Assembly (NCBI GenBank): GCA_020846875.1
Contig: JADLDB010000134.1
Location: forward strand, 1 to 53,995
From: Myxococcales bacterium
Lineage (GTDB): Bacteria > Myxococcota > Myxococcia > Myxococcales > Myxococcaceae
DNA length: 53,995 nt
Direction: 5' to 3'
Part shown: positions 4,654 through 18,622 of the stretch, in pieces
How the letters are laid out: every line of letters begins with the position of its first letter
Numbering within the stretch: position 1 is the first letter of the stretch
Notes under the pieces: model-generated
Databases searched by the model: none
Told to the model about the DNA's origin: nothing
Seen by the model: the letters and a program-made list of their open reading frames with translations, nothing else
Translations under genes and position numbers: made by a program

Positions 4654-4721
4654 GGCGCGCAGCCTACCACCCGCCCATCCCTGTGACGGGAGGCGCCTCG
4701 CCTGCTACAGACACCCACCCC

Positions 4722-5732
4722 ATGAGCGACGCGCGACGGACGGTGACCTTGATGAGCGGCGACGGCATTGGCCCCGAGGTGATGGAAGCCACCCGCGCCA
4801 TCCTCGAGGCCGCGAGGTGCCCGCTGGACTACGAGTACCAGGAGGCCGGCGCCGGCGCCTCGTCCCGCTTCGGCACCAACCTGCCCGACGTCACCGTGGA
4901 GTCCTGCCTGCGCAACGGGGTGGGCCTCAAGGGCCCCACCGCCACCGGCATCGGCGGCGGCCAGCAGTCGGCCAACGTGGCCCTGCGCAAGCGCCTCGAC
5001 CTCTACGCCAGCCTGCGCCCGGTGAAGTCCATCCCCGGGGTGAAGACGCGCTACGAGGACGTGGACCTGGTGGTGGTGCGGGAGAACACCGAGGACCTCT
5101 ACGCCGGCCTCGAGCACATCGTGGTGCCGGGCGTGGTGGAGAGCCTCAAAATCATCACCGAGAAGGCGTCCACCCGCATCTGCCGCTTCGCCTTCGAGTA
5201 CGCCCGCGCCCGCGGCCGCAAGAAGGTGTCGGCGGTGCACAAGGCCAACATCATGAAGCTGTCCGACGGCCTCTTCCTCGACTGCTTCCGCGCCGTGTCG
5301 CGCGAGTTCCCCGACATCCAGGGCGAGGAAGTCATCGTCGACGCCCTGTGCATGCAGTTGGTGCGCTGGCCGGAGAAGTTCGACGTGATGGTGATGGAGA
5401 ACCTCTACGGCGACATCGTGTCCGACTTGTGCGCGGGCCTGGTGGGCGGGCTGGGCCTGGTGCCGGGCGCCAACCTCGGGGAGAAGACGGCCGTCTTCGA
5501 GGCGGTGCACGGGACGGCGCCGGACATCGCGGGCAGCGGCCTGGCCAACCCCACCGCGCTCTTGATGTCCGCGGTGATGATGCTGGACTACCTGAAGCTG
5601 ACCGAGCACTCCCGGCGCATCGAGCAGGCGCTCCTGGCGGTGTACGCCGAGGGGAAGGTGAAGACGAAGGACCTCGGCGGCAGCGCGAAGACGACGGACT
5701 TCACCCGAGCCGTCATCGACGCGATGAAGTGA
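4722..5732 (+). CDS. Isocitrate dehydrogenase, NAD-type family
   Basis: The 336-residue product belongs to the beta-decarboxylating dehydrogenase family. It shows the substrate loop [18 protein letters not shown], the [13 protein letters not shown] segment, the catalytic Lys region ([12 protein letters not shown]) and the metal/NAD region ([11 protein letters not shown]). The Ser-x-Asn pair in the substrate loop and the ENTEDLYAG run fit isocitrate rather than isopropylmalate or tartrate, and the short length fits the NAD-dependent, IDH3-like group. It would oxidise isocitrate to 2-oxoglutarate in the TCA cycle. ATG 4722 was chosen because the family N-terminus ([15 protein letters not shown]) follows at once. 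The ApbE gene begins 9 bp downstream. Confidence 0.92.
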
Positions 5733-5741
5733 GGAGCTCGC

Positions 5742-6809
5742 GTGCACGGTGACGGGAAGCTCCCTCGCCCCTGGCTGGCCGCGCTCCTCGTGGTGTCCTC
5801 CGCCGCCTGGGCCGACGCCGGCACCCTCGACGCCGGCACCGGCGAGCCCTTCGTGCGCCGCACCCGGGAGTTGATGCACACCCGCGTGGCCATCGCGCTG
5901 CCCTGGTCGATGGACGCCGCCGCGCGCGAAGCCGCCTTCACCGAGGCCTTCGCCGTCTTCGAGGCCATCGAGGTGCGGCTCAACGAGTGGAAGCCCGACT
6001 CCCCACTCTCCCGGGTGAACGCGGGCGCCGGCGGGAAGCCGGTGGAGGCGCCGGCCGACGTGTGTGACGTCGTCTCGCTGGCGCTGGACGGCGCGAGGAA
6101 GACGGGCGGGCTGTTCGACCCGACGTGGGCGGCGCTCAAGGACGTGTGGCGCTTCGGCAGCGACGAGACGGGTGAGGTGCCCTCCGACGAGGCGCTCGCG
6201 AAGGTGTGCCCACTGGTGAACTGGAAGGCGGTGGAGCTCGAGCCGCTGACGAAGCCGACGACGGAGCGCGCCTGCACCATCCGCCTGGCGAAGCTGGGGA
6301 TGCGCCTGGGGCTGGGCGGCGTGGTGAAGGGCTGGGGCGTGGACCAGGTGGTGAAGCGCCTGCGCGCGAAGGGCCTCGCCGACTTCTTCGTGCAGGCCGG
6401 CGGGGACTTGTACCTCGCGGGGAAGAATGGAGACCGGCCCTGGCGCGCCGGCATCCGCGACCCGAGAGGCCCGCTGGAGCAGACCGTCGCGCGGCTGGAG
6501 GTGGGCGACACCGCCTTCTCCACCTCGGGCGACTATGAGCACTTCTTCCTGAAGGACGGCGTGCGCTACCACCACCTCATCGACCCGCGCACCTGCCGGC
6601 CGGCGACGACGTCCATCTCCGCCACCGTGCTGGCGAAGACGGCGGTGGACGCGGAGTTCCTCACCAAGGCTGTCTTCATCCTTGGCCCGAAGGAAGGCGG
6701 AAAGCTGGCCGAGAAGCTGGGCGCGCAGGTGGTCGTCATCACCCCCGATGAGGCCGTGCACGCCTCGAAGGCCCTCGAGGGCCGCCTCGTCACCTGGAAG
6801 AACCGGTGA
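5742..6809 (+). CDS. apbE: FAD:protein FMN transferase, periplasmic (ApbE)
   Basis: ApbE moves FMN from FAD onto a Thr or Ser of exported flavoproteins. This copy has a signal peptide ending near SSAAWA, so it acts in the periplasm. The family motifs are present: GGVVKGWGVDQ, QAGGDLYLAG and HHLIDPRTC, plus a late Ala/Asp-rich metal-binding segment (AKTAVDAEFLTKA). Length (355 aa) is normal. The GTG start at 5742 follows GAGGAG at 5731 with good spacing. It is 9 bp behind the dehydrogenase gene but functionally fits the convergent operon that ends 2 bp away at 6812 (DUF4266, DUF3570, heme-motif proteins): I recall ApbE-DUF4266-DUF3570 sets in other bacteria. No substrate with the canonical S-G-A-T type acceptor was seen in the window. 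Confidence 0.93.
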   Translation: MHGDGKLPRPWLAALLVVSSAAWADAGTLDAGTGEPFVRRTRELMHTRVAIALPWSMDAAAREAAFTEAFAVFEAIEVRLNEWKPDSPLSRVNAGAGGKPVEAPADVCDVVSLALDGARKTGGLFDPTWAALKDVWRFGSDETGEVPSDEALAKVCPLVNWKAVELEPLTKPTTERACTIRLAKLGMRLGLGGVVKGWGVDQVVKRLRAKGLADFFVQAGGDLYLAGKNGDRPWRAGIRDPRGPLEQTVARLEVGDTAFSTSGDYEHFFLKDGVRYHHLIDPRTCRPATTSISATVLAKTAVDAEFLTKAVFILGPKEGGKLAEKLGAQVVVITPDEAVHASKALEGRLVTWKNR

Positions 6810-6811
6810 AG

Positions 6812-8629
6812 CTACAGCTCGACGCGCGCCGCCACCTGCCCGCCGTGCGTCACGTCCGTCGCCTGCAGCGGCCCCGCTCCGCGCGCGCCTCCGCCGGCAA
6901 AGCGCACCTGGCTCCAGGAGAAGAGGTACTTGAGGCCGAGGTGCACGCCGGACCTCCCCAGCCCCAGGCCCACCTGCGCCTGCCCGCCGGCGGTGAGGCC
7001 TCCCAGAAACGCGCCGTAGCCCGTCTCCGCCAGGGTGCCCGCGTCCACCACTGCGCCGAGGCGTGGCCGCACCTCCACCACCACCGGGCCGGAGAAGCGC
7101 AGCGCCACCTCTCCGCCCAGCGACTGCAGCCACACGTCGTCGAAGGCGCTGTTCTTCTCCACCCCGCCGACCTCCATGCGGAAGAGGCCGCGCGGCGAGA
7201 CGGAGAAGCGCCCCAGGTCGAAGCGCCAGCCCAGGGCGAGAAAGCCCTCCGAAGGCAACACCGCGTTGGCGTCGGTCTGGTCCGCGCCGATGGCCCAGCC
7301 CACCTGGTAGTTGCCTTCGAGGTGCAGCCCGCCGTCGGCCAGGCGCAACAGGCGCAGCGGGTAGAGGAGGAAGCCGAAGGCCACCGCGGGGTACGCCATG
7401 GCGTAGCGCTGGAAGGGCGCGTCGGAGTCGAGCGCGAAGACGCGGTGGCCGCCGCCCAGCCCGGCGGAGAGCTCGAGGGCCGAGGGAGCGTCTGAGTCGT
7501 CGCGGCGCCGCTGCAGGGTGGAGGCGACGCGGTCGGCATCCGCCGTGCCGGCGAGGGAGGTGGCCGATGCGGCCGAGGTGCCCGCGGAGGTGCCCGGCGC
7601 CGCCCCTGCCGAGGGGCGCCCACTCTCCGCCGCCGCCCCCGGTGCCGCCCCGGTCGAAGTCGAGGAGTCACCCGTGGAGGCCGCAGCGGGAGCAGCGCCC
7701 GCGCCGGCTGACGAGGCCGCGCCCGGCGCGACGGACGACGCCCCTGCGGCAGGGGCGTCCACCGCGGGAGGCTTCTGCGGGGCGCCGTCCTCGCTCTTCT
7801 TCTTCGCGCTCGCCGCCGCCGGCTTCTTCGGGGCGTTCTTCTTCGGCGCCGCCCACGACGCATCCGGTGCCAGCAGCAACGCGAACAGCACGCCCGCGAG
7901 GGAGCACCTCCTCGGCCCGGCCCTCTCCTGCGATGGAGGAGAAGGAGCCCCCTTCCGGCGCAGCAGCAGCACGAGGACCAGCCACGCCAGCGCGCTCCCC
8001 GGCACCGCCGCGCAACCGCCCGGCTTCGGCGTCGTCGGCGAGGGGAGGCCCACCACCAGCGACACCGCCGCGTCCTCCAGGTTGGTGCCGTCGCCGTTGC
8101 CGGCCACCGCCGAGAAATACAGTGTCACCTGGCCCACGTCGGTGGCCGGCGCCGTCCACGCAAGCCGCCACCGCGTCAGGCCCTCCCGGCACGCGTTGGA
8201 GTGCGCCACCCGCCCGTCCGCCGACACCTCCACCACCGCCGAGAAGCCGTCGGGGCACAGCGCCTCGGCCTCCATTCCCGGCGCGGGCGGCGCCACGGAC
8301 AATGTCCCGGCCGGCGCCCCCGCTGCGTCCACCACCTCCAGCGCGATGGCCGAGGCCTTCGCCGCCTCCGTCACCGACACCTCCAGTGGGTACGTCTCGC
8401 CCGGCGCGTAGCCCTCGGCGTCCAGGTTCCTCCCTGACGCCGTGATGCTGGCCCGCAAGGTGGGCTGCTTCTGGCTGGGAAGGGGCCCGTGGCACACCCC
8501 GCAGCTCCACTTCGACGCCGGCGCCCCGGTGAAGTCCACCCCGCCGCCGCCGCCCACGAAGGCCGGGGCCTGGAAGTTGACCGGCACGGTGAAGGCCAGC
8601 ACCGACAAGGTGACGAGGCTCACGGCCAC
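6812..8629 (-). CDS. CxxCH/reeler-domain protein fused in frame to an outer-membrane protein
   Basis: This 605-residue reading frame looks like two proteins joined. Residues 1-225 have a signal peptide, a single heme-c type motif C43-G-V-C46-H47, a reeler-like (choice-of-anchor V) domain with GYAPGETY and WRLAWTAP, and then PGGC206 followed by a short hydrophobic helix and LRRKG, which resembles a myxobacterial C-terminal sorting tail. Residues about 242-260 then form a second signal-peptide-like stretch (SLAGVLFALLLAPDASWA), followed by an Ala/Pro/Lys-rich linker to about 390 and a beta-rich, probably outer-membrane barrel, domain. A GTG at 7891 could start the second part separately. The start GTG 8629 follows GGAGGT; GTG 8623 would overlap the upstream stop. 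It is the last gene of the DUF4266 operon, and its first half resembles the protein at 13632-14327. Confidence 0.75.
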   Translation of the reverse strand: MAVSLVTLSVLAFTVPVNFQAPAFVGGGGGVDFTGAPASKWSCGVCHGPLPSQKQPTLRASITASGRNLDAEGYAPGETYPLEVSVTEAAKASAIALEVVDAAGAPAGTLSVAPPAPGMEAEALCPDGFSAVVEVSADGRVAHSNACREGLTRWRLAWTAPATDVGQVTLYFSAVAGNGDGTNLEDAAVSLVVGLPSPTTPKPGGCAAVPGSALAWLVLVLLLRRKGAPSPPSQERAGPRRCSLAGVLFALLLAPDASWAAPKKNAPKKPAAASAKKKSEDGAPQKPPAVDAPAAGASSVAPGAASSAGAGAAPAAASTGDSSTSTGAAPGAAAESGRPSAGAAPGTSAGTSAASATSLAGTADADRVASTLQRRRDDSDAPSALELSAGLGGGHRVFALDSDAPFQRYAMAYPAVAFGFLLYPLRLLRLADGGLHLEGNYQVGWAIGADQTDANAVLPSEGFLALGWRFDLGRFSVSPRGLFRMEVGGVEKNSAFDDVWLQSLGGEVALRFSGPVVVEVRPRLGAVVDAGTLAETGYGAFLGGLTAGGQAQVGLGLGRSGVHLGLKYLFSWSQVRFAGGGARGAGPLQATDVTHGGQVAARVEL

Positions 8630-9498
8630 GGGCCACCTCCGTCACAGGAGGCGCCGGAGTTGATCCACTCCAGCAGGGCCGGCTGGTGGCTGGGCAGCAG
8701 CACGCCCTGGTGCGCCTTCAGCCCGTAGGGCGGCCCGGTGTACTGCATCAGCTTCGAGCGCGCCGGCTCGCACGGCAGCACCGAGGGCCGCGCGCACCCC
8801 GACGCCCGCACCGCCTCGCAGCTGTCCGGAAGAAAGCAGCCCGCGTCGCGCACATTCTGTGGGGTGTGGCAGCCCGCCTCCCGCGCGCAGGTGGCCGGGG
8901 TGATGATGCTGGCCACCCGCTGGTAGCCCACCCCCGCGTCGAGACACGCCGGCACGCCGCCGCCGCCTCCTCCGCCGCCCGTGCCGCCATCGTCGGCGCC
9001 GCCGCCGCCTCCTCCCGCGCCGCCGCCCGCGCCCGCGTCCCACGCCGCGCCCGCCACCCAGTCGGCCAGCGCCTTCCACCGCGCGTCCTCCTTCGTCGGG
9101 TAGACGTTCTTCCCGAAGGCGTCCACGCCCTCGTGGCCCGCGCCGCCGGCCGCCTCTTGCAGCGGCTTGCGCAACAGGTCGGACAGGGCAGCGGCGGTGG
9201 GCGCCGCCGACAGCCGCGCGCGCTCGAAGTTGGCCTGGTGCTCCTCGGGGACGAGGCCGTCGGTGGGCAGCCCTGCGCGCAGGCGCAGCCCCGCGGGAGA
9301 GAAGAGGCGCAGGGGCCGCTGCGGCGCTCCGTGGCAGTTGCTGAAGGCGCAGCTGTGCAGAAGCTCCGGCTCGACGACGGCCTCGAAGTACGCCCGGTCC
9401 AGCGCCGGCGCCGTCTGTACCGGGTTGCCGGGCGGACTGCCCGCGCAGGGGAAGGTGAGGGCCGCGCCGAAGACGGTGAGGGAGAAGAGGGCGCGCAT
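8620..9498 (-). CDS. Exported protein with CX4CH and CX5CH motifs and Gly-rich linker
   Basis: The 292-residue protein has an N-terminal hydrophobic signal with PC18AG, possibly a lipoprotein. After it comes C50-AFSN-C55-H56-G, a CX4CH motif, then a Gly/Asp linker at about 155-182, then C204-AREAG-C210-H211, with eight further Cys nearby. Such CX4CH pairs occur in planctomycete-type cytochrome-like domains, where heme attachment has been proposed but is less certain than for CxxCH. Local sequence LHSCAFSNCHG...RPLRL parallels LNCSMIGCHG...RPYF in the protein at 12796-13608. It starts 4 bp after the DUF3570 stop and overlaps the next gene by 10 bp, so the operon is tight. Electron transfer is an inference. 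Confidence 0.85.
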   Translation of the reverse strand: MRALFSLTVFGAALTFPCAGSPPGNPVQTAPALDRAYFEAVVEPELLHSCAFSNCHGAPQRPLRLFSPAGLRLRAGLPTDGLVPEEHQANFERARLSAAPTAAALSDLLRKPLQEAAGGAGHEGVDAFGKNVYPTKEDARWKALADWVAGAAWDAGAGGGAGGGGGGADDGGTGGGGGGGGVPACLDAGVGYQRVASIITPATCAREAGCHTPQNVRDAGCFLPDSCEAVRASGCARPSVLPCEPARSKLMQYTGPPYGLKAHQGVLLPSHQPALLEWINSGASCDGGGPWP

Positions 9499-9502
9499 GG
9501 CG

Positions 9503-10576
9503 TTAGAAGTCCACCCCCACGCCGGCCTGGGTGATGAGGGCCCACCGCGTCGGCAGCCGCGGGAAGTCGGGGTACTGGAAGTACATCCCCTCCACCTTGG
9601 CGTCCACGCGCACCACCGCGCCGCTCTTCTTGCTGCGCAGGGGCAGCCACTCCAGCTTCACCCCGAAGAGGTGCGAGGTGAAGGCCGACAGCTCCCGGTC
9701 CGCGGACAGGTACGCCTTCGGCGCGTCGTAGAAGGACTGGTAGAAGTACGCGCCGTTCTGCACGTAGAAGCGGTAGCGCAGCCGCACCGTCAGCGCGTCG
9801 AAGTCGAGGACGAGGCGCGCCTCCGCGGTGTGCGAGAGCAGCGACCAGGTGTCGGCGTAGAGGCGGTAGTCGAGGTGCGCCACCAGCAGGCCCACGTACT
9901 GCTTCACGCCCACCGCGCCCGCTACCCGGAAGCGGCTGCCCGGCTCCGTCTCGGGCAGCAACGTCACCGCGTCTCCCAGTTGCACGCGCACCTTGCGGTA
10001 CGGGCTGGCCAGCATGCCGTTGGACTGGGCCACCGTGGCGGCGACTTGCGCGATGGTGCGCGGCGTCAGCGTGTATGTCGCCGCGAGGTCGCCGCTCCAG
10101 TCGGACATCGGCGCCACGTACGCGGGGTCGTCGGCGCGCCCCACCAGGTTGGACATGAAGCCCACCCGCGCGGTGACGCCCAGGTTCCGCTGGAGGAACT
10201 CCCGGGTAAAGGAGAGCGAGCCGCCGTTGGAGGTGTAGTCCCGCTCGCGCGCGTGCATGTACGCGGCGCTCACCTGCCCGCCCAGCACCGCCTGCCCCAG
10301 GCCGAAGTCGACCTCCTGCCGCCGGTCGTAGATGCGCGGGCTGGCGGTGGTGCGCACGTCCACCGAGGCGGAGGAGACGACGTCTTCGGTGTAGGTGGCG
10401 TTGACGGAGGTGCCGGTGCCGAAGGTGGCGCTGCCGGTGACGTGCGGCGAGACGACGATGGTGGCGTCGCTGTCCGCGTACACCTGCACCTTGGAGGACA
10501 CCACCACGTCGGCGGCCTGCGCGCCGGCCGCCAGCGCCGCACCGAGGGAGACGAGGGCCCTCAGTTGCAGCCGCAT
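9503..10576 (-). CDS. DUF3570 outer-membrane beta-barrel protein
   Basis: The 357-residue protein has a signal peptide ending GAQAA and continuous amphipathic beta strands ending GVGVDF, with the terminal Phe expected of an outer-membrane barrel. Patterns such as the early strand VVSSKVQVYADSD, a DRRQEVDFG segment and repeated Y-rich strands fit DUF3570. In other bacteria I know this family next to DUF4266 and ApbE, as here. ATG 10576 was chosen because the signal peptide follows it; it overlaps the DUF4266 stop by 16 bp, which suggests translational coupling. Its role is unknown; a porin-like conduit or anchor for the redox proteins of the operon is an inference. Confidence 0.88.
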   Translation of the reverse strand: MRLQLRALVSLGAALAAGAQAADVVVSSKVQVYADSDATIVVSPHVTGSATFGTGTSVNATYTEDVVSSASVDVRTTASPRIYDRRQEVDFGLGQAVLGGQVSAAYMHARERDYTSNGGSLSFTREFLQRNLGVTARVGFMSNLVGRADDPAYVAPMSDWSGDLAATYTLTPRTIAQVAATVAQSNGMLASPYRKVRVQLGDAVTLLPETEPGSRFRVAGAVGVKQYVGLLVAHLDYRLYADTWSLLSHTAEARLVLDFDALTVRLRYRFYVQNGAYFYQSFYDAPKAYLSADRELSAFTSHLFGVKLEWLPLRSKKSGAVVRVDAKVEGMYFQYPDFPRLPTRWALITQAGVGVDF

Positions 10577-10770
10577 CCGCCTCCCCGGGCCCCGCGCGCG
10601 CCGGACGAGCCTTCCCTGCTGTCCACCAGGTGGTTCTCCAGCACCTGCTCGTCGCTGTCCTCGTTGAACTGCATGCAGCGCTTCGACAGCAGCCCGCGCT
10701 GGGGCGCGGAGACGAGGACGCACGAGGGCAGGAGGGCCAACACCGTGCACAGGGCCAGCGCGCGACGCAT
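10561..10770 (-). CDS. DUF4266 small lipoprotein with C-terminal CGCN tail
   Basis: This 69-residue protein matches the DUF4266 pattern: a lipoprotein signal (ALLPSC17), a short middle with RGLLSKRCMQF, an acidic helix, then SSGARGARGGGCGCN at the extreme C-terminus. The Gly-rich tail ending C66-G-C68-N is the hallmark of the family and suggests metal binding, modification or cross-linking at the tip. It is the first gene of the minus-strand operon and overlaps DUF3570. ATG 10770 gives the signal peptide directly; a longer open frame upstream has no such logic. The SSGAR stretch resembles part of the ApbE acceptor motif but has Arg where Thr or Ser should be, so flavinylation at that residue is not expected. 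Confidence 0.88.
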   Translation of the reverse strand: MRRALALCTVLALLPSCVLVSAPQRGLLSKRCMQFNEDSDEQVLENHLVDSREGSSGARGARGGGCGCN

Positions 10771-10844
10771 CGACGCGCGAGCGTACCCCGACTGTCCCCC
10801 CCCCGCCGAAGGAGAGAGGTGCGCACCCGTGACCACCTCCGGCG

Positions 10845-11819
10845 TCAGCGGCCGCGGGCCTTGCGTTCGGCCTCCAGGGCCTTCAGTCGCGCGGCCGCGC
10901 CGGAGAAGTCCGGCCACAGCTCCAGCGCGCGGCGGTAGGCGGCCAGGGCCTCGTCGTACTCCTCCGCCGCCGCGTGCGCCTCGGCCTTGCCGAACCAGGC
11001 CTGGGGTTGAGTGGGCGCCAGGCACACCAGCGTCTCGTACGCGGCGCGCGCCTCTTCCTGCAGGCCGGCGGCCCGGTACGCGCCTGCCGCGCGAAACCAG
11101 GTGGGCGCCTCGGTGCCCCGGGCCGCGAGGTACGCCCGGTAGGCCCGGCGGGCCGCCTCGCTTCCGCGCAGCGTCTCCACGAAGGACTGGTGGGAGATGG
11201 GCAGCTTCGCCCCTTCTGCGTCGAAGGCCGCGCGGAAGGCCGCCTCGGCCTGCGCTTGGTCGAGGTGCTCCAGGCAGCCCGCGCGGGCCTGGCGGGCCTG
11301 GGCCCGGCGGAAGTCATCGGTGAGGACGCGCACGGGGCGCCCGTGGAGCTTCAGCGTGCGGTTGTCGGGCTCGGCCAGCACCTCGTCCCACGCGGCCACC
11401 GCGGCCTCGTCGCGTCGCAGGGCGGTGAGGGCCTGGGCGCGGCCGAAGAGGGCCTCGGGTTCGTCCGCCCGCAGCGCCAGCGTGCGCTCGAAGGCGTCCA
11501 GCGCGGCCTCGTCCCGTCGCAGCCGCGCGAGGCACTGCGCCATCGACAGCCAGACGTCCGCGTCATCGGGGCTCAAGTGCGTGGCTTGCACGAAGGCGTC
11601 CAGCGCCTCCTCGTGGCGCTCGAGGCTGGCGAGGGTGAAGGCCCGCTGGCGCGCCGCGCCCCGGTGCGAAGGGTCCAGGGCCAGCGCCTGCTCGAAGGCC
11701 GCCACCGCGTCCTCCAGGTCGCCCCGGTACTCGGACAGCCGGTCCGCGCCGCGCGAGAGGTCCAGGCACCACTCGCCCTTGTCAAACCACGCTTCCGCTG
11801 TCGTCGGCGCCGGGTCCAC
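10845..11819 (-). CDS. TPR-repeat protein
   Basis: The 324-residue protein has no signal peptide and consists almost entirely of TPR helices: residues about 10-165 carry four units with the usual spacing (DAVAAFEQALALDP, EALDAFVQATHLSP, AALDAFERTLALR, AAVAAWDEVL), and three more follow at 230-315. A non-TPR insert around residues 160-215 includes DNRTLKLHGRPVRVLTDDFRRAQ. It would act as a cytoplasmic protein-protein scaffold; no enzyme motif is visible. It starts at GTG 11819 and ends 74 bp before the DUF4266 start on the same strand, so it could be the head of that operon or independent. Confidence 0.8.
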   Translation of the reverse strand: MDPAPTTAEAWFDKGEWCLDLSRGADRLSEYRGDLEDAVAAFEQALALDPSHRGAARQRAFTLASLERHEEALDAFVQATHLSPDDADVWLSMAQCLARLRRDEAALDAFERTLALRADEPEALFGRAQALTALRRDEAAVAAWDEVLAEPDNRTLKLHGRPVRVLTDDFRRAQARQARAGCLEHLDQAQAEAAFRAAFDAEGAKLPISHQSFVETLRGSEAARRAYRAYLAARGTEAPTWFRAAGAYRAAGLQEEARAAYETLVCLAPTQPQAWFGKAEAHAAAEEYDEALAAYRRALELWPDFSGAAARLKALEAERKARGR

Positions 11820-11966
11820 CCCGCCAGTCTAGGCGGGCTCTCGCGCTGAACTCTTAAGGGGCGCGGTGAGCCTGCCTCATCCTTCCTCCAGTCAGGCCTT
11901 GTCCCGGGCGGCCAGTTCGGGCAGGATGCCCGTGAATTTGAAAGTCAGTCGCAAAGTGGAGCCCTC

Positions 11967-12197
11967 ATGTACGTCTGTATCTGCAAGGCCGTCACGGACC
12001 GGGTGGTGGACCAGGCCATCGAGGCCGGCGCGGCGTCGGTGGGCGCGGTGGGCGAGGCGACGGGCGCGGGGACGGACTGCGGCTGCTGCCAGAATGCCAT
12101 CGCCCGCCGGCTGGCCCGCGCGGCCGGGGGCTGCGGCGGCGCGTGCAGCACTTGCCCTGCGCAAAACGGTGCGGCGCAGGCGGGGGCGACGGGTTAG
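11967..12197 (+). CDS. bfd: Bacterioferritin-associated ferredoxin, [2Fe-2S]
   Basis: The 76-residue protein has C4-x-C6 at the N-terminus and C38-G-C-C41, the CxC...CxxC ligand set of Bfd, which binds a [2Fe-2S] cluster and delivers electrons to bacterioferritin to release stored iron. The C-terminal 20 residues add four more Cys residues (GGCGGACSTC) that standard Bfd lacks, which may be an extra metal site or simply a tail. It lies 30 bp upstream of the bacterioferritin gene on the same strand, the expected pairing. Iron control is likely by analogy, but no convincing Fur-type operator was found upstream. Confidence 0.93.
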   Translation: MYVCICKAVTDRVVDQAIEAGAASVGAVGEATGAGTDCGCCQNAIARRLARAAGGCGGACSTCPAQNGAAQAGATG

Positions 12198-12227
12198 GGT
12201 CCTTCCATTCTGACGCCGGGAGGGGCC

Positions 12228-12704
12228 ATGAAGGGTGATGCGAAGGTCATCGCGCTGCTCAACGACATCCTCACTGCCGAGCTGACGGCCATCAACCAGT
12301 ACTTCCTGCACGCCGAGCTCTGCGAGCACTGGGGCTTCGAGCGGCTGCACCACCGGCTGCGCAAGGAGTCCATCGAGGAGATGAGGCACGCGGAGAAGCT
12401 CGTCCACCGCATCCTCTTCCTCGAGGGCTTGCCCAACCTGCAGAAGTTGAACAAGGTGGGCGTGGGCCAGACGGTGGCCGAGCAATTCCAACTGGACCTG
12501 GCCGTCGAGCTGGAGGCGGTCAAGCGCCTCAACGACGCCATCGAGGCCTGCCGCGCGGTGGGTGACGGCGGCACCCGGGAAGTCCTCGAGCACATCCTCC
12601 GCGAGGAGGAAGGGCACGTCGACTGGACCGAGACGCAGTTGGAGGCGATGAAGACGGTGGGCGAGCAGAACTACCTGGCCGAGCAACTGAAGAAGGAAGA
12701 GTAG
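12228..12704 (+). CDS. bfr: Bacterioferritin
   Basis: The 158-residue protein matches bacterioferritin position by position: ferroxidase ligands E18, E51, H54, E94, E127 and H130 are all present, and M52 is the residue that ligates the inter-subunit heme. It stores iron as ferric mineral in a 24-subunit shell, with ferroxidation at the dinuclear site. It is preceded by bfd and followed, after 91 bp, by the second CX4CH/reeler gene pair, which may share the iron or heme theme. The ATG at 12228 follows a GGGAGGGG ribosome site. Confidence 0.97.
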   Translation: MKGDAKVIALLNDILTAELTAINQYFLHAELCEHWGFERLHHRLRKESIEEMRHAEKLVHRILFLEGLPNLQKLNKVGVGQTVAEQFQLDLAVELEAVKRLNDAIEACRAVGDGGTREVLEHILREEEGHVDWTETQLEAMKTVGEQNYLAEQLKKEE

Positions 12705-12795
12705 GCCGCGCGCCCGCGCCGACTCGACGGACTCCCCCGTAGACCGAAGTCCGGTACACTCCGGTGCTCACGGCCGAAGCCGAAGGGGAGACGGA

Positions 12796-13608
12796 ATGCA
12801 CCTGCGCCGAGTGGTGGTGCCGCTGCTGATTCTCGCAGCGGCGTGGAGCTGCGGCAGCCCGACCAACCCGGACCTCGACGGAGGAGCAGGCGGAGGAGCC
12901 GCCGGCGGTGGCTCCGGCGGCGGAGGGGGAGGCGCGGGCGGCGGCAGCGTGGGTGGCGGCACGGGTGGCGGCGGCAGCGCGGGCGGAGGCGGCGGCTCCA
13001 GCGACGGCGGCTGCCCGGAAGACTGGGTGTGCGGCACCTGGGTGCCGGTGCCCGACGCCGGCGTGGCCACCCGCACCTGCATCGACCAGAACGCCAGCGG
13101 CACCACCGTCTGCAAGCCCGGTGAAGGGCCGGTGCCCCTGCCGCCCCTGGACTACAACTTCTTCCGCTGCCGGGTCCACCCGGTGCTGGCCCTCAACTGC
13201 TCGATGATTGGGTGCCACGGCGACGCGCAGCGCCCGTACTTCATCTACGCGCGCGGGCGGATGCGCATCCACGAGACGGTGACGATGGCCTGGCCGGGGT
13301 GCCTCATCAACACGCCGCAGACCTTCGACGTGTACGACCGCGCCACCGCCACCGTGCAGTGCTGGGGGAACATGGCGCTGCGCCCGCGCGAGTGGGCCAA
13401 CAACTTCGACATGAGCCGCGCCCTGGCTCTCGACACCACCGCGCCCGCCGACTCCGAGCTCCTCGCGCAGCCCAACAGCCAGTCCTCCTTCGCCCACGCC
13501 GGCATGAAGTTCTGGGACCCCTCCTCGCCCGACTTCCAGACGCTGGCCCTCTGGTTGGACGGGGGCACGCAGGCCACCTGCGACGCCGGCTTCAACGACC
13601 ACAACTGA
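12796..13608 (+). CDS. Lipoprotein with Gly-rich linker and CX4CH motif
   Basis: The 270-residue protein has a lipoprotein signal (AAAWSC19), a Gly-rich linker at about 29-68, a Cys-rich stretch (C73 to C106), then RVHPVLALNCSMIGCHG with C135-SMIG-C140-H141, a CX4CH motif, and a C-terminal region with FWDPSSPDFQTLALWLDGG, which recalls the closing segment of planctomycete-cytochrome-like domains where a short helix precedes the end. It is a paralogue in layout of 8620-9498. The ATG has a strong GGGGAGA ribosome site. The next gene, a CxxCH/reeler protein, starts 23 bp downstream, repeating the order seen in the minus-strand operon. Heme attachment is not proven by sequence. Confidence 0.87.
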   Translation: MHLRRVVVPLLILAAAWSCGSPTNPDLDGGAGGGAAGGGSGGGGGGAGGGSVGGGTGGGGSAGGGGGSSDGGCPEDWVCGTWVPVPDAGVATRTCIDQNASGTTVCKPGEGPVPLPPLDYNFFRCRVHPVLALNCSMIGCHGDAQRPYFIYARGRMRIHETVTMAWPGCLINTPQTFDVYDRATATVQCWGNMALRPREWANNFDMSRALALDTTAPADSELLAQPNSQSSFAHAGMKFWDPSSPDFQTLALWLDGGTQATCDAGFNDHN

Positions 13609-13631
13609 CTTTCACGAAGGACGCCACCTCC

Positions 13632-14327
13632 ATGAAGCGCTTCCGACTTGCAGTGCTGGGCGTGCTCCTCCTCGCGGGCGCGGTGCGGGCCTGGCAGTAC
13701 GAAGACGAATTCACCCTGGACCAGATGGGCGGGCGGCCCGGCGGCGGCGGCAACTGGGCCACCGGCGGCCAGCGCGAGCACAAGGTGACGTGCGTGATGT
13801 GCCACGTGCTGCCCGACGCCGGCTTCCCGTCCCGCATCAGCGCCAACGTCACCTTCTCGCCCGCGCTCACCTCGGCGGCGGACGGCGGCAGCGCCTACCT
13901 GCGCAACACCACCTACGACGTCACCGTGGCGATGGTGGGCGAGCACCTGGGCCTGTCCGGCACCGGCGCCAACCACAACCAGATGGCCGCGTCCTTCGAG
14001 GACGGGCAGGGGCGGTACGCGGGGCGCCTGCGCTCGGACACCGGCTTCGCCAAGGGCGGCAACTGCCCCACCACCCTGACGGCAGCGCACTTCAACGCCT
14101 ACGACGCGGGCAGCACCACCGTCACCTTCGCCGGCTGCAACGCCGTCGTCGGGCGGGGGCGCGGCGCCAACGCCAGCGGCCACACCACCTGGCGCTTCCA
14201 GTGGACGGCCCCGGACGGCGGCGGGCCCATCACCCTCTACTACGGCGTCACCGACGCCAGCGGCGACGAGAAGACGCTCGGCGACGACTCGGTGATGGGC
14301 GCCAGGGTGCTGGAGCAGGGAAACTGA
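13632..14327 (+). CDS. CxxCH/reeler-like (choice-of-anchor V) exported protein
   Basis: The 231-residue protein has a signal peptide (LLLAGAVRA), then C54-V-M-C57-H58, a standard heme-c motif, and a beta domain with LRNTTYDVTVAM, a conserved Cys pair (GGNCPTTLTA, FAGCNA), TTWRFQWTAPDGG and ITLYYGVTDASGDEKTLGDDS. The W-x-F-x-W-T-A-P and the Gly-Asp-x-x-x-x-D ending are shared with the N-terminal half of the protein at 6812-8629, but here no C-terminal anchor or fused barrel follows. It sits directly behind the CX4CH lipoprotein. A role in envelope electron transfer or in presenting heme is inferred from the motif only. Confidence 0.87.
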   Translation: MKRFRLAVLGVLLLAGAVRAWQYEDEFTLDQMGGRPGGGGNWATGGQREHKVTCVMCHVLPDAGFPSRISANVTFSPALTSAADGGSAYLRNTTYDVTVAMVGEHLGLSGTGANHNQMAASFEDGQGRYAGRLRSDTGFAKGGNCPTTLTAAHFNAYDAGSTTVTFAGCNAVVGRGRGANASGHTTWRFQWTAPDGGGPITLYYGVTDASGDEKTLGDDSVMGARVLEQGN

Positions 14328-14519: not shown

Positions 14520-15440
14520 TTACAGCCAGCGCTTGCGCCAGAAGAAGAAGGCCACCGCCCCGGCCACGGTGAAGGAGCCGAGCAGGACGAAGAAGAAGGC
14601 CAGCGGGTGGTGCTGAAGAGGCAGGTCCACGTTCATCCCGTAGAAGCTGGCCACCATGGTGGGGAAGGTGAGCACCAAGGTGAGGGCGGTCAGCACCTTC
14701 ATCACGACGTTCAGGTTGTTGGAGATGATGGAGGCGAAGGCGTCCATCATCTGCGAGAGGATTTCTTCGGTGATGCGCGTCATCTGCAGCGCCTGGCGAA
14801 GCTCCACCTGTGCGTCTTCCAGGAGCGCCTGGTCCTCGGCCGAGACGGCGAAGCGCGCGTCCTTCGGCAGGCGCGACAGCATCAACTCATTGGCCTCCAG
14901 CCCGGTGGTGAAGTGGACCAGCGCCTTCTGGTACTTGAGCAGCCCCAGCACCTCGCGGTTGCGCAGGCTGGCCTCGAGCTCTTCTTCCAGGGTGTCCACG
15001 GCGCGCTCGATGTCGCGCAGGTGCGCGAGGTAGTTGGCGGCGCAGACGCCCACCAGGTTCAGGACGAAGTGGTTGGTGCGCGAGGGGTCCAGGCCCTGCC
15101 GCGCGGCCAGCGCTGCCGCCAGCTCCGCGCCGCCGGCCGACACCGTCACCACCAGGCCCTCGCGGAAGATGACGCCCAGCGTGGTGGTGCGGAAGGGCAC
15201 TCCGTCGCCGTTGCCGGGCGCCGGCACGCGCAGCACCACCAGCGCGCAGGCGCCGTCGTGGTCCACCCGGGCCACCTCATCGGGGTCCAACGCGTAGGCC
15301 AGCAGCGCCGGGGCGATGCCCGCGGCCTCGAGCGCCCTTCGTTCCTCTGCGCCCGGCGCCGCCGCGTGCACCCAGCCGGACGCCGGCAGCGTGCCCAGCG
15401 GCTCCAGGGCGTGCGTCTTCTCGTTCCAGCGCTGCAGCAC
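14520..15440 (-). CDS. CorA-family divalent cation transporter
   Basis: The 306-residue protein has the CorA layout: a soluble N-terminal alpha/beta domain, a long helical funnel, and two C-terminal transmembrane helices, the first ending in the YGMN signature (YGMNVDLPLQ) that forms the pore selectivity filter for Mg2+ and related ions. The cytoplasmic tail ends WRKRWL, the basic patch usual in the family. It starts at GTG 15440. The protein at 17603-18622 is a second, distant member, so this locus carries two. It is followed at its 3' end by a 192-bp stretch with no clear gene. Confidence 0.92.
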   Translation of the reverse strand: MLQRWNEKTHALEPLGTLPASGWVHAAAPGAEERRALEAAGIAPALLAYALDPDEVARVDHDGACALVVLRVPAPGNGDGVPFRTTTLGVIFREGLVVTVSAGGAELAAALAARQGLDPSRTNHFVLNLVGVCAANYLAHLRDIERAVDTLEEELEASLRNREVLGLLKYQKALVHFTTGLEANELMLSRLPKDARFAVSAEDQALLEDAQVELRQALQMTRITEEILSQMMDAFASIISNNLNVVMKVLTALTLVLTFPTMVASFYGMNVDLPLQHHPLAFFFVLLGSFTVAGAVAFFFWRKRWL

Positions 15441-17602: not shown

Positions 17603-18622
17603 ATGCGCGGCGTGGGGGACTGGGCACCCAGCGAGAAGTCCTGGAGCGGGGGCGAGGCGGGCTACACCTGCGTCGAGCTGGACTTCGCCACCAAGAAGCA
17701 CCGGGCCATCGGCGCCGCGGAGGCGCAGGCCGCGATGGACGGGGGGAAGTTCATCTGGCTCGACGTCGACTTGGCGGCGGGTGAGGTGGCCCGGAAGGTG
17801 CTCGAGCTGGCGAAGCTGGGCACCGCGGAGATTGTGGAGGACGCACTCTCCCGCGAGCCGGCTACCCAGTTGGCGCGCCACGAGGACTTCCTGCACCTGG
17901 TGCTGACCGGCTGCCGCCTCGAGGCAAGCAGGTTCGCCCTGGAGCGCGTGGACGCGGTGCTGGGTGAGCGCTTCCTCATCACCCTTCACAAGGGCTCCAC
18001 GGTGTTCCTCTCGACGCTGCGCCGCACCTGGCTGGACGACTTCGTGCGCTTCGCGCAGAGCCCCAGCTTCCTCCTCTACGAGCTGTGGGACTGCCTGTTG
18101 GACAACTACCTGGCGGTGCAGAAGGTGCTGGAGGAGCGCGTCGAGAAGACCCAGGCGCAGCTCACCGGCGAGGTGGACGACCGCCTCTTCAAAGAGGCCA
18201 CCGAGCTGGGGGCGGAGCTCTTGCATCTGCGCAAGGTGGTCCTGCCCGCGCGCGCGGTGTTGACCGACCTCTCTACCCGCAAGTCCCGCTTCGTCAGCGA
18301 GGCCACCCAGCCGTACCTGAGCAACATGGTGGGCGTGGTGGAGCGCGTGCTGCAGGACGTGCTGACGGACCGCGACATCCTCGCCGGCAGCTTGAGCAAC
18401 TACATGTCGCTGGTGGCCCACCGGACCAACCGGGTGATGAGCAAGCTGACGGTGGTGAGCATCATCTTCCTCCCGCTCACCTTCCTCTGCGGCGTGTACG
18501 GGATGAACTTCGAGGTGTTGCCTGAGCTGCGCTGGCAGTACGGGTACGGGGGCTTCTGGGGGCTGGTGCTGGCCATCGTCCTGGGGCTCCTGTGGTTCAT
18601 GCGGAAGAACAGGCTGCTGTGA
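17603..18622 (+). CDS. CorA-family divalent cation transporter (second copy)
   Basis: The 339-residue protein has the full CorA architecture: N-terminal alpha/beta domain, long stalk helix (QKVLEERVEKTQAQL onwards) and two C-terminal transmembrane helices with the signature YGMN (CGVYGMNFEVLPEL). The periplasmic loop is longer and more aromatic than in the copy at 14520-15440 and the tail ends FMRKNRLL. The two copies are distant paralogues, not a recent duplication. An ATG at 17603 is used. It is followed after 67 bp by a three-gene group on the same strand. Confidence 0.93.
   Translation: MRGVGDWAPSEKSWSGGEAGYTCVELDFATKKHRAIGAAEAQAAMDGGKFIWLDVDLAAGEVARKVLELAKLGTAEIVEDALSREPATQLARHEDFLHLVLTGCRLEASRFALERVDAVLGERFLITLHKGSTVFLSTLRRTWLDDFVRFAQSPSFLLYELWDCLLDNYLAVQKVLEERVEKTQAQLTGEVDDRLFKEATELGAELLHLRKVVLPARAVLTDLSTRKSRFVSEATQPYLSNMVGVVERVLQDVLTDRDILAGSLSNYMSLVAHRTNRVMSKLTVVSIIFLPLTFLCGVYGMNFEVLPELRWQYGYGGFWGLVLAIVLGLLWFMRKNRLL

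Follow-up and report, generated by a model that had tools for sequence, protein, structure and literature searches.

A recurring pair of putative haem proteins beside an ApbE-DUF3570-DUF4266 flavinylation set in a myxobacterial genome

A stretch of 53,995 nucleotides from a Myxococcales bacterium (assembly GCA_020846875.1, contig JADLDB010000134.1), here called the window, carries the ApbE-DUF3570-DUF4266 set of flavinylation genes together with two gene pairs, A and B, each encoding a CX4CH lipoprotein and a CxxCH protein of the choice_anch_V family (Table 1). The products are probably haem proteins, a pair that is new beside a known but little-studied flavin set and that may pass electrons to or from the cell surface. 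The locus is best read as an outer-membrane electron-transfer module that would run from thiol to flavin mononucleotide (FMN) to haem and carry electrons to or from the outside, a reading that we hold with a probability of about 0.6. If true, it adds a flavin-based means of moving electrons over the outer membrane.

That the locus holds the published set is strongly supported. A first-pass annotation, made from the letters of the DNA, had named these genes at or very near the positions given here, had described ApbE as facing a tight operon and had recognised ApbE-DUF4266-DUF3570 as a familiar combination. Pfam and NCBIfam matches and the gap lengths agree with this: the minus-strand operon runs DUF4266, DUF3570, CX4CH A, choice_anch_V A, its neighbouring genes spaced by -16, +4 and -10 bp, and apbE converges on it with 2 bp between them. 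The combination is the flavinylation set of Meheust et al. 2021 (PMC8238504), whose main text describes clusters in which ApbE, DUF3570 and DUF4266 occur with a thioredoxin-like protein and in some cases also DsbD, reports flavinylation of Chlorobium DUF3570 at two [ST]GA[ST] motifs and calls the function of the system uncertain. Neither a barrel nor Myxococcota is mentioned in that main text, and our literature search found no other paper naming DUF3570 or DUF4266. The window shares with the published system ApbE, a DUF3570 protein with two putative motif sites and a DUF4266 lipoprotein with a C-terminal CXC. It differs in that the motif glycine is replaced by serine or threonine and in that its cluster is without DsbD and without a thioredoxin-like gene, the latter being typical of the system, not universal in it, and present in or fused into sister clusters. 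It also adds the CX4CH and choice_anch_V pair, with a second pair nearby. The pair had been placed outside the known combination from the start, and rightly so: it is a recurring addition that goes unnamed in the main text of PMC8238504.

The CX4CH lipoprotein and the CxxCH choice_anch_V protein form a recurring two-gene unit tied to the flavinylation set, a conclusion strongly supported by its neighbourhoods in a comparison set of 195 Myxococcota genomes (labels beginning with L denote the neighbourhoods compared). All 14 of 14 pairs, found in five genomes that all carry DUF3570, have the CX4CH gene first and the choice_anch_V gene directly next on the same strand. DUF3570 itself occurs in 17 of the genomes, 4 of them in the window's family. 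A search for genomic co-occurrence, as the first-pass annotation had suggested, places the pair's CxxCH subfamily (query choice_anch_V B) in 5 of the 195 genomes, every one with DUF3570 (P 2.8e-6, kinship ignored). The possibility that other myxobacteria carry these genes scattered had also been raised; the neighbourhood proved to be conserved across relatives, though few members of the family have the complete set. In the metagenome-assembled genome Archangiaceae bacterium LZH (L027/L095), one gene run comprises TlpA, DUF4266, DUF3570, CX4CH A, choice_anch_V A, CX4CH B, choice_anch_V B and ApbE, a run that holds both the type-A and the type-B CX4CH protein. Both pairs thus lie within one operon there, in line with the earlier proposal that the second pair belongs to the same system. 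The L028 locus has ApbE in convergent orientation to choice_anch_V A, CX4CH, DUF3570 and a TlpA-DUF4266 fusion, and one additional gene lies between. Pair B had been taken for a second copy of pair A; a pair of these types is present at that place, but it is not a close copy, since its CX4CH protein shares about 31% identity with that of pair A, and a plain duplication was rejected for this reason. Pair B would instead be a second set of carriers of the pair-A type.

Gene fusions and more distant loci extend the association. A single open reading frame in L028 (L028:10545-11255, minus strand) joins a TlpA-like thioredoxin to DUF4266, and another (L139:8-1405, minus strand) joins a TlpA thioredoxin to ApbE, with a two-CxxCH protein, a CX4CH protein and a larger cytochrome-like protein as neighbours. 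A third (L093:717-2024, minus strand) runs from choice_anch_V (CTSCH) through a hydrophobic segment with arginine and a second signal with lipobox to a complete DUF4266 ending in CACN; the same genome has a DUF3570-CX4CH-choice_anch_V run that is without DUF4266 (L035). The motif-less DUF3570 of f11 likewise has a DUF4266-like segment attached. The pair might also have come to lie beside the flavin set by accident or by joint mobility, the two being functionally unrelated, as its uneven distribution (4 genomes in the family) and the stand-alone position of pair B and relatives could suggest. This is highly improbable given that the adjacency is repeated in several lineages in fixed order, that choice_anch_V is fused to DUF4266 and that the pair subfamily is confined to DUF3570 genomes. 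CX4CH-type proteins lie near DUF3570 in distant genomes as well (L032, L033, L035, L039 and most f11 loci), and those of L033 and L039 are accompanied by hydrazine-synthase-alpha-like and propeller cytochrome-like proteins; no CX4CH gene was found near DUF3570 in L030, L031 and L034. Pfam identifies c-type cytochromes in DUF3570 loci from other lineages (L033, L039, L100), a CX10-15CH relative is kept in Polyangia-type loci (L106, L107, L109-L111) and in L097, and in the gammaproteobacterial loci L100-L102 and L104 CxxCH proteins adjoin a thioredoxin-DUF4266-DUF3570 run. As a separate observation, f11 Myxococcota (L037-L045) and L104 share a larger conserved cluster round a DUF3570-like protein, with a CX4CH protein, SH3 and outer-membrane proteins and proteins of about 210, 620 and 1000 amino acids with tetratricopeptide repeats; a MotA/ExbB gene lies close by in L104.

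No family of Pfam or NCBIfam reaches its cut-off with the CX4CH proteins. Across 15 relatives, the lipobox cysteine, both motif cysteines, the histidine, the glycine that follows and a distal histidine are all invariant, and the motif is therefore not a chance occurrence. The motif histidine would be the proximal ligand of a haem, and the distal histidine is a possible second ligand. A relative of CX4CH B (G068:C410) is 74% identical to it, and its gene too is followed by choice_anch_V. Canonical CXXCH is absent, the spacing being CX4CH or CX5CH. Searches of the Protein Data Bank (PDB) with single sequences gave no match. A profile of the 15 relatives, compared with all PDB sequences, retrieved only PccH (4rlr; E 0.069) and the haem domain of hydrazine synthase alpha (5c2v; E 1.8), both aligned at the haem cysteines in the register F...v.PlL...C...CHG; these have CXXCH where the window proteins have CX4CH, and membership of either family is not claimed. 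Many phmmer matches covered just the glycine-rich N-terminus and were discarded. Long-spaced haem motifs are known from sulfite reductases (CX15CH and CX12NKGCH, each with dedicated haem lyases; PMC6976685), and the window genome encodes Ccm system I. Judged from sequence, haem on the CX4CH proteins is likely. Alternatively, the core could be a flavin and thiol system and the pair haem-free, the CX4CH and CxxCH disulfides being substrates in a path of thiol-disulfide exchange or surface-protein maturation. The variable C-to-CH spacing of the CX4CH family, 4 at its shortest and about 14 at its longest, and the TlpA and CXC chemistry upstream would suit such a path, whereas the histidine after the second cysteine and the conserved distal histidine would be superfluous for a disulfide. 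With profile matches that are haem sites, and with cytochromes holding the same places in other lineages, a haem-free pair is unlikely.

The second member of the pair belongs to the NCBIfam family choice_anch_V (NF041895), with bit scores of 61.4 for A and 42.2 for B against a curated cut-off of 42. Its earlier label, "reeler", was loosely right: no Pfam family, Reeler included, matches at E 1, and the link of the profile to solved reeler domains is weak (spondin-1 structures, E 0.23-0.37). In the PDB the profile also finds cytochrome c552 at its CXXCH (E 0.0094). Since CxxCH is invariant in 14 relatives, it is not a chance motif. Protein A has the family domain and then, by eye, a Cys-hydrophobic-Arg segment (Cys-TM-RR), a second signal-like stretch and a barrel-like tail. 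The domain-plus-tail layout recurs in L027 and L028; the L028 protein resembles that of the window, and the L027 counterpart has a single hydrophobic stretch. The segment resembles the MYXO-CTERM tags that are cut by myxosortase for surface anchoring (PMC11980579). NCBIfam makes no MYXO-CTERM call in protein A, and came near to one in L035. Protein A may thus be a polyprotein that is cut in two. The family as a whole was rejected as a marker of the system, as it occurs in 96 of the 195 genomes, its general members (seen in 18 regions) being mostly stand-alone, with an N-terminal CxxCH or CX3-4CH; specificity is confined to the paired subfamily. The window proteins are like these general members in model score and N-terminal CxxCH and unlike them in being paired with a CX4CH lipoprotein and, for A, in having the barrel-like tail. 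A literature search on choice-of-anchor V found no paper.

On the flavin side, the window genome (100% complete) encodes a single ApbE and a single DUF3570, whereas FMN_bind and DUF2271 proteins are absent, which makes DUF3570 the sole substrate among the ApbE classes tested, another substrate being possible. The protein carries two candidate ApbE-type motifs, DVVSSAS (residues 65-71) and RTTAS (residues 75-79), with cores SSAS and TTAS against the published [ST]GA[ST]. Neither A70 nor S71 varies across 19 homologs, D65 is almost as constant, and the glycine position is held by glycine, serine, alanine or threonine, also outside Myxococcota. All 9 of 9 Myxococcota genomes whose DUF3570 was judged to be motif-bearing encode ApbE, compared with 2 of 8 with the motif-less f11 DUF3570-like proteins, which are also without CXC (Fisher 0.002, kinship ignored). 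Separately, a protein matching DUF2271, another class of ApbE substrate, adjoins a DUF3570 gene in G018 (L034:10066-11676, minus strand).

By prediction, DUF3570 is a beta-barrel, an assignment that is strongly supported by an AlphaFold2 model (19 sequences; predicted local distance difference test, pLDDT, 85) with 16 long strands and by Foldseek matches to OmpG and other outer-membrane barrels. The motif loop (69-82) sits between strands 3 and 4 of the model, with low confidence at residues 71-80, and the four longest loops all lie on its side of the barrel. Residues conserved in at least 85% of the sequences fall almost entirely in the motif-side half (27 of 28; background 59%, Fisher 4e-6). 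If the N- and C-termini are periplasmic, this side would face outward, an orientation that follows from topology. Taken together, the conserved haem-type partner, the predicted barrel and the conserved, putatively outward site point to a specific site, open to experiment, where the flavins and the next electron carrier could lie.

In the proposed path, reducing equivalents would pass from DsbD to a TlpA lipoprotein, from there to the CXC tail of DUF4266 and on to two FMNs that ApbE would attach to the loop joining barrel strands 3 and 4. Haem carried by the CX4CH lipoprotein and by the choice_anch_V protein would come next, and these two proteins would give electrons to, or take them from, a partner outside. 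One copy of DsbD is encoded elsewhere in the window genome, and so is a TlpA lipoprotein (G000:C109), an ortholog 52% identical to the TlpA of L027/L095. A more specific and more tentative version places the two covalent FMNs at the outward rim of the barrel, with the glycine-rich CXC tail of DUF4266 extending to them from the inside; together with the haem proteins this would make a thiol-FMN-haem conduit, a flavin counterpart of porin-cytochrome conduits. The likeness to the Mtr and Pcc conduits is one of idea only, an outer-membrane barrel with redox cofactors: the window is without a multihaem cytochrome, has predicted FMN on the barrel and single-haem-type partners, and no homology was found.

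Several observations weigh against the electron-transfer module. No TlpA, DsbD or other thioredoxin-like gene lies in the window cluster, and the fusions and neighbourhoods rest on few genomes, several relatives being draft metagenome bins. The usual glycine of the flavinylation motif is replaced in the window DUF3570, and in another flavinylation target a change of glycine to alanine left about half the flavinylation (PMC12052999). The CX4CH profile has weak PDB matches (E 0.07 and 1.8), and spacing of the CX10-15CH type depends on a dedicated haem lyase in known cases (PMC6976685). The AlphaFold2 model of CX4CH protein B has low confidence (pLDDT 43) and the Polyangia relatives carry CX10-15CH, so that haem is no more than likely.

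The first-pass annotation had proposed an electron or iron route across the envelope. Electrons are the better reading; the iron part is not supported. A module that assimilates or stores iron and has Bfd-Bfr as a partner in the cytoplasm would account for bfd-bfr just upstream of pair B and recalls the 25 DUF3570 clusters with VIT1 in Meheust et al. (PMC8238504). It is very unlikely here, since no bfr match was found in the other loci compared, the stand-alone pair loci L087-L093 included, and no iron transporter was seen near the cluster. An iron link through bfd-bfr was rejected, the adjacency not being conserved in those loci.

Table 1. Genes of the locus, in window positions
Feature	Positions	Strand	Evidence or motif
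apbE, exported FMN transferase	5742..6809	+	PF02424 E 8.8e-74, N-terminal signal sequence by eye
choice_anch_V (reeler-like) protein A	6812..8629	-	NF041895 E 9.9e-17, CGVCH, barrel-like tail
CX4CH lipoprotein A	8620..9498	-	two cytochrome-like domains (CAFSNCH; CAREAGCH)
DUF3570, predicted 16-strand outer-membrane barrel	9503..10576	-	PF12094 E 4.5e-32
DUF4266 lipoprotein	10561..10770	-	PF14086 E 8.8e-15; C-terminal end GGGCGCN (CXC)
bfd	11967-12197	+	
bfr	12228-12704	+	
CX4CH lipoprotein B	12796..13608	+	CSMIGCH, Gly-rich linker
choice_anch_V protein B	13632..14327	+	NF041895 E 7.8e-11, CVMCH

A promoter scan of the locus gave no match, and terminator matches carry no information. The icd and apbE genes (4683-6809) lie on the same strand with a gap of 9 bp and may be co-transcribed. 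Beyond pair B, two genes for CorA-family transporters (14520-15440, minus strand, and 17603-18622, plus strand) lie within about 4 kb.

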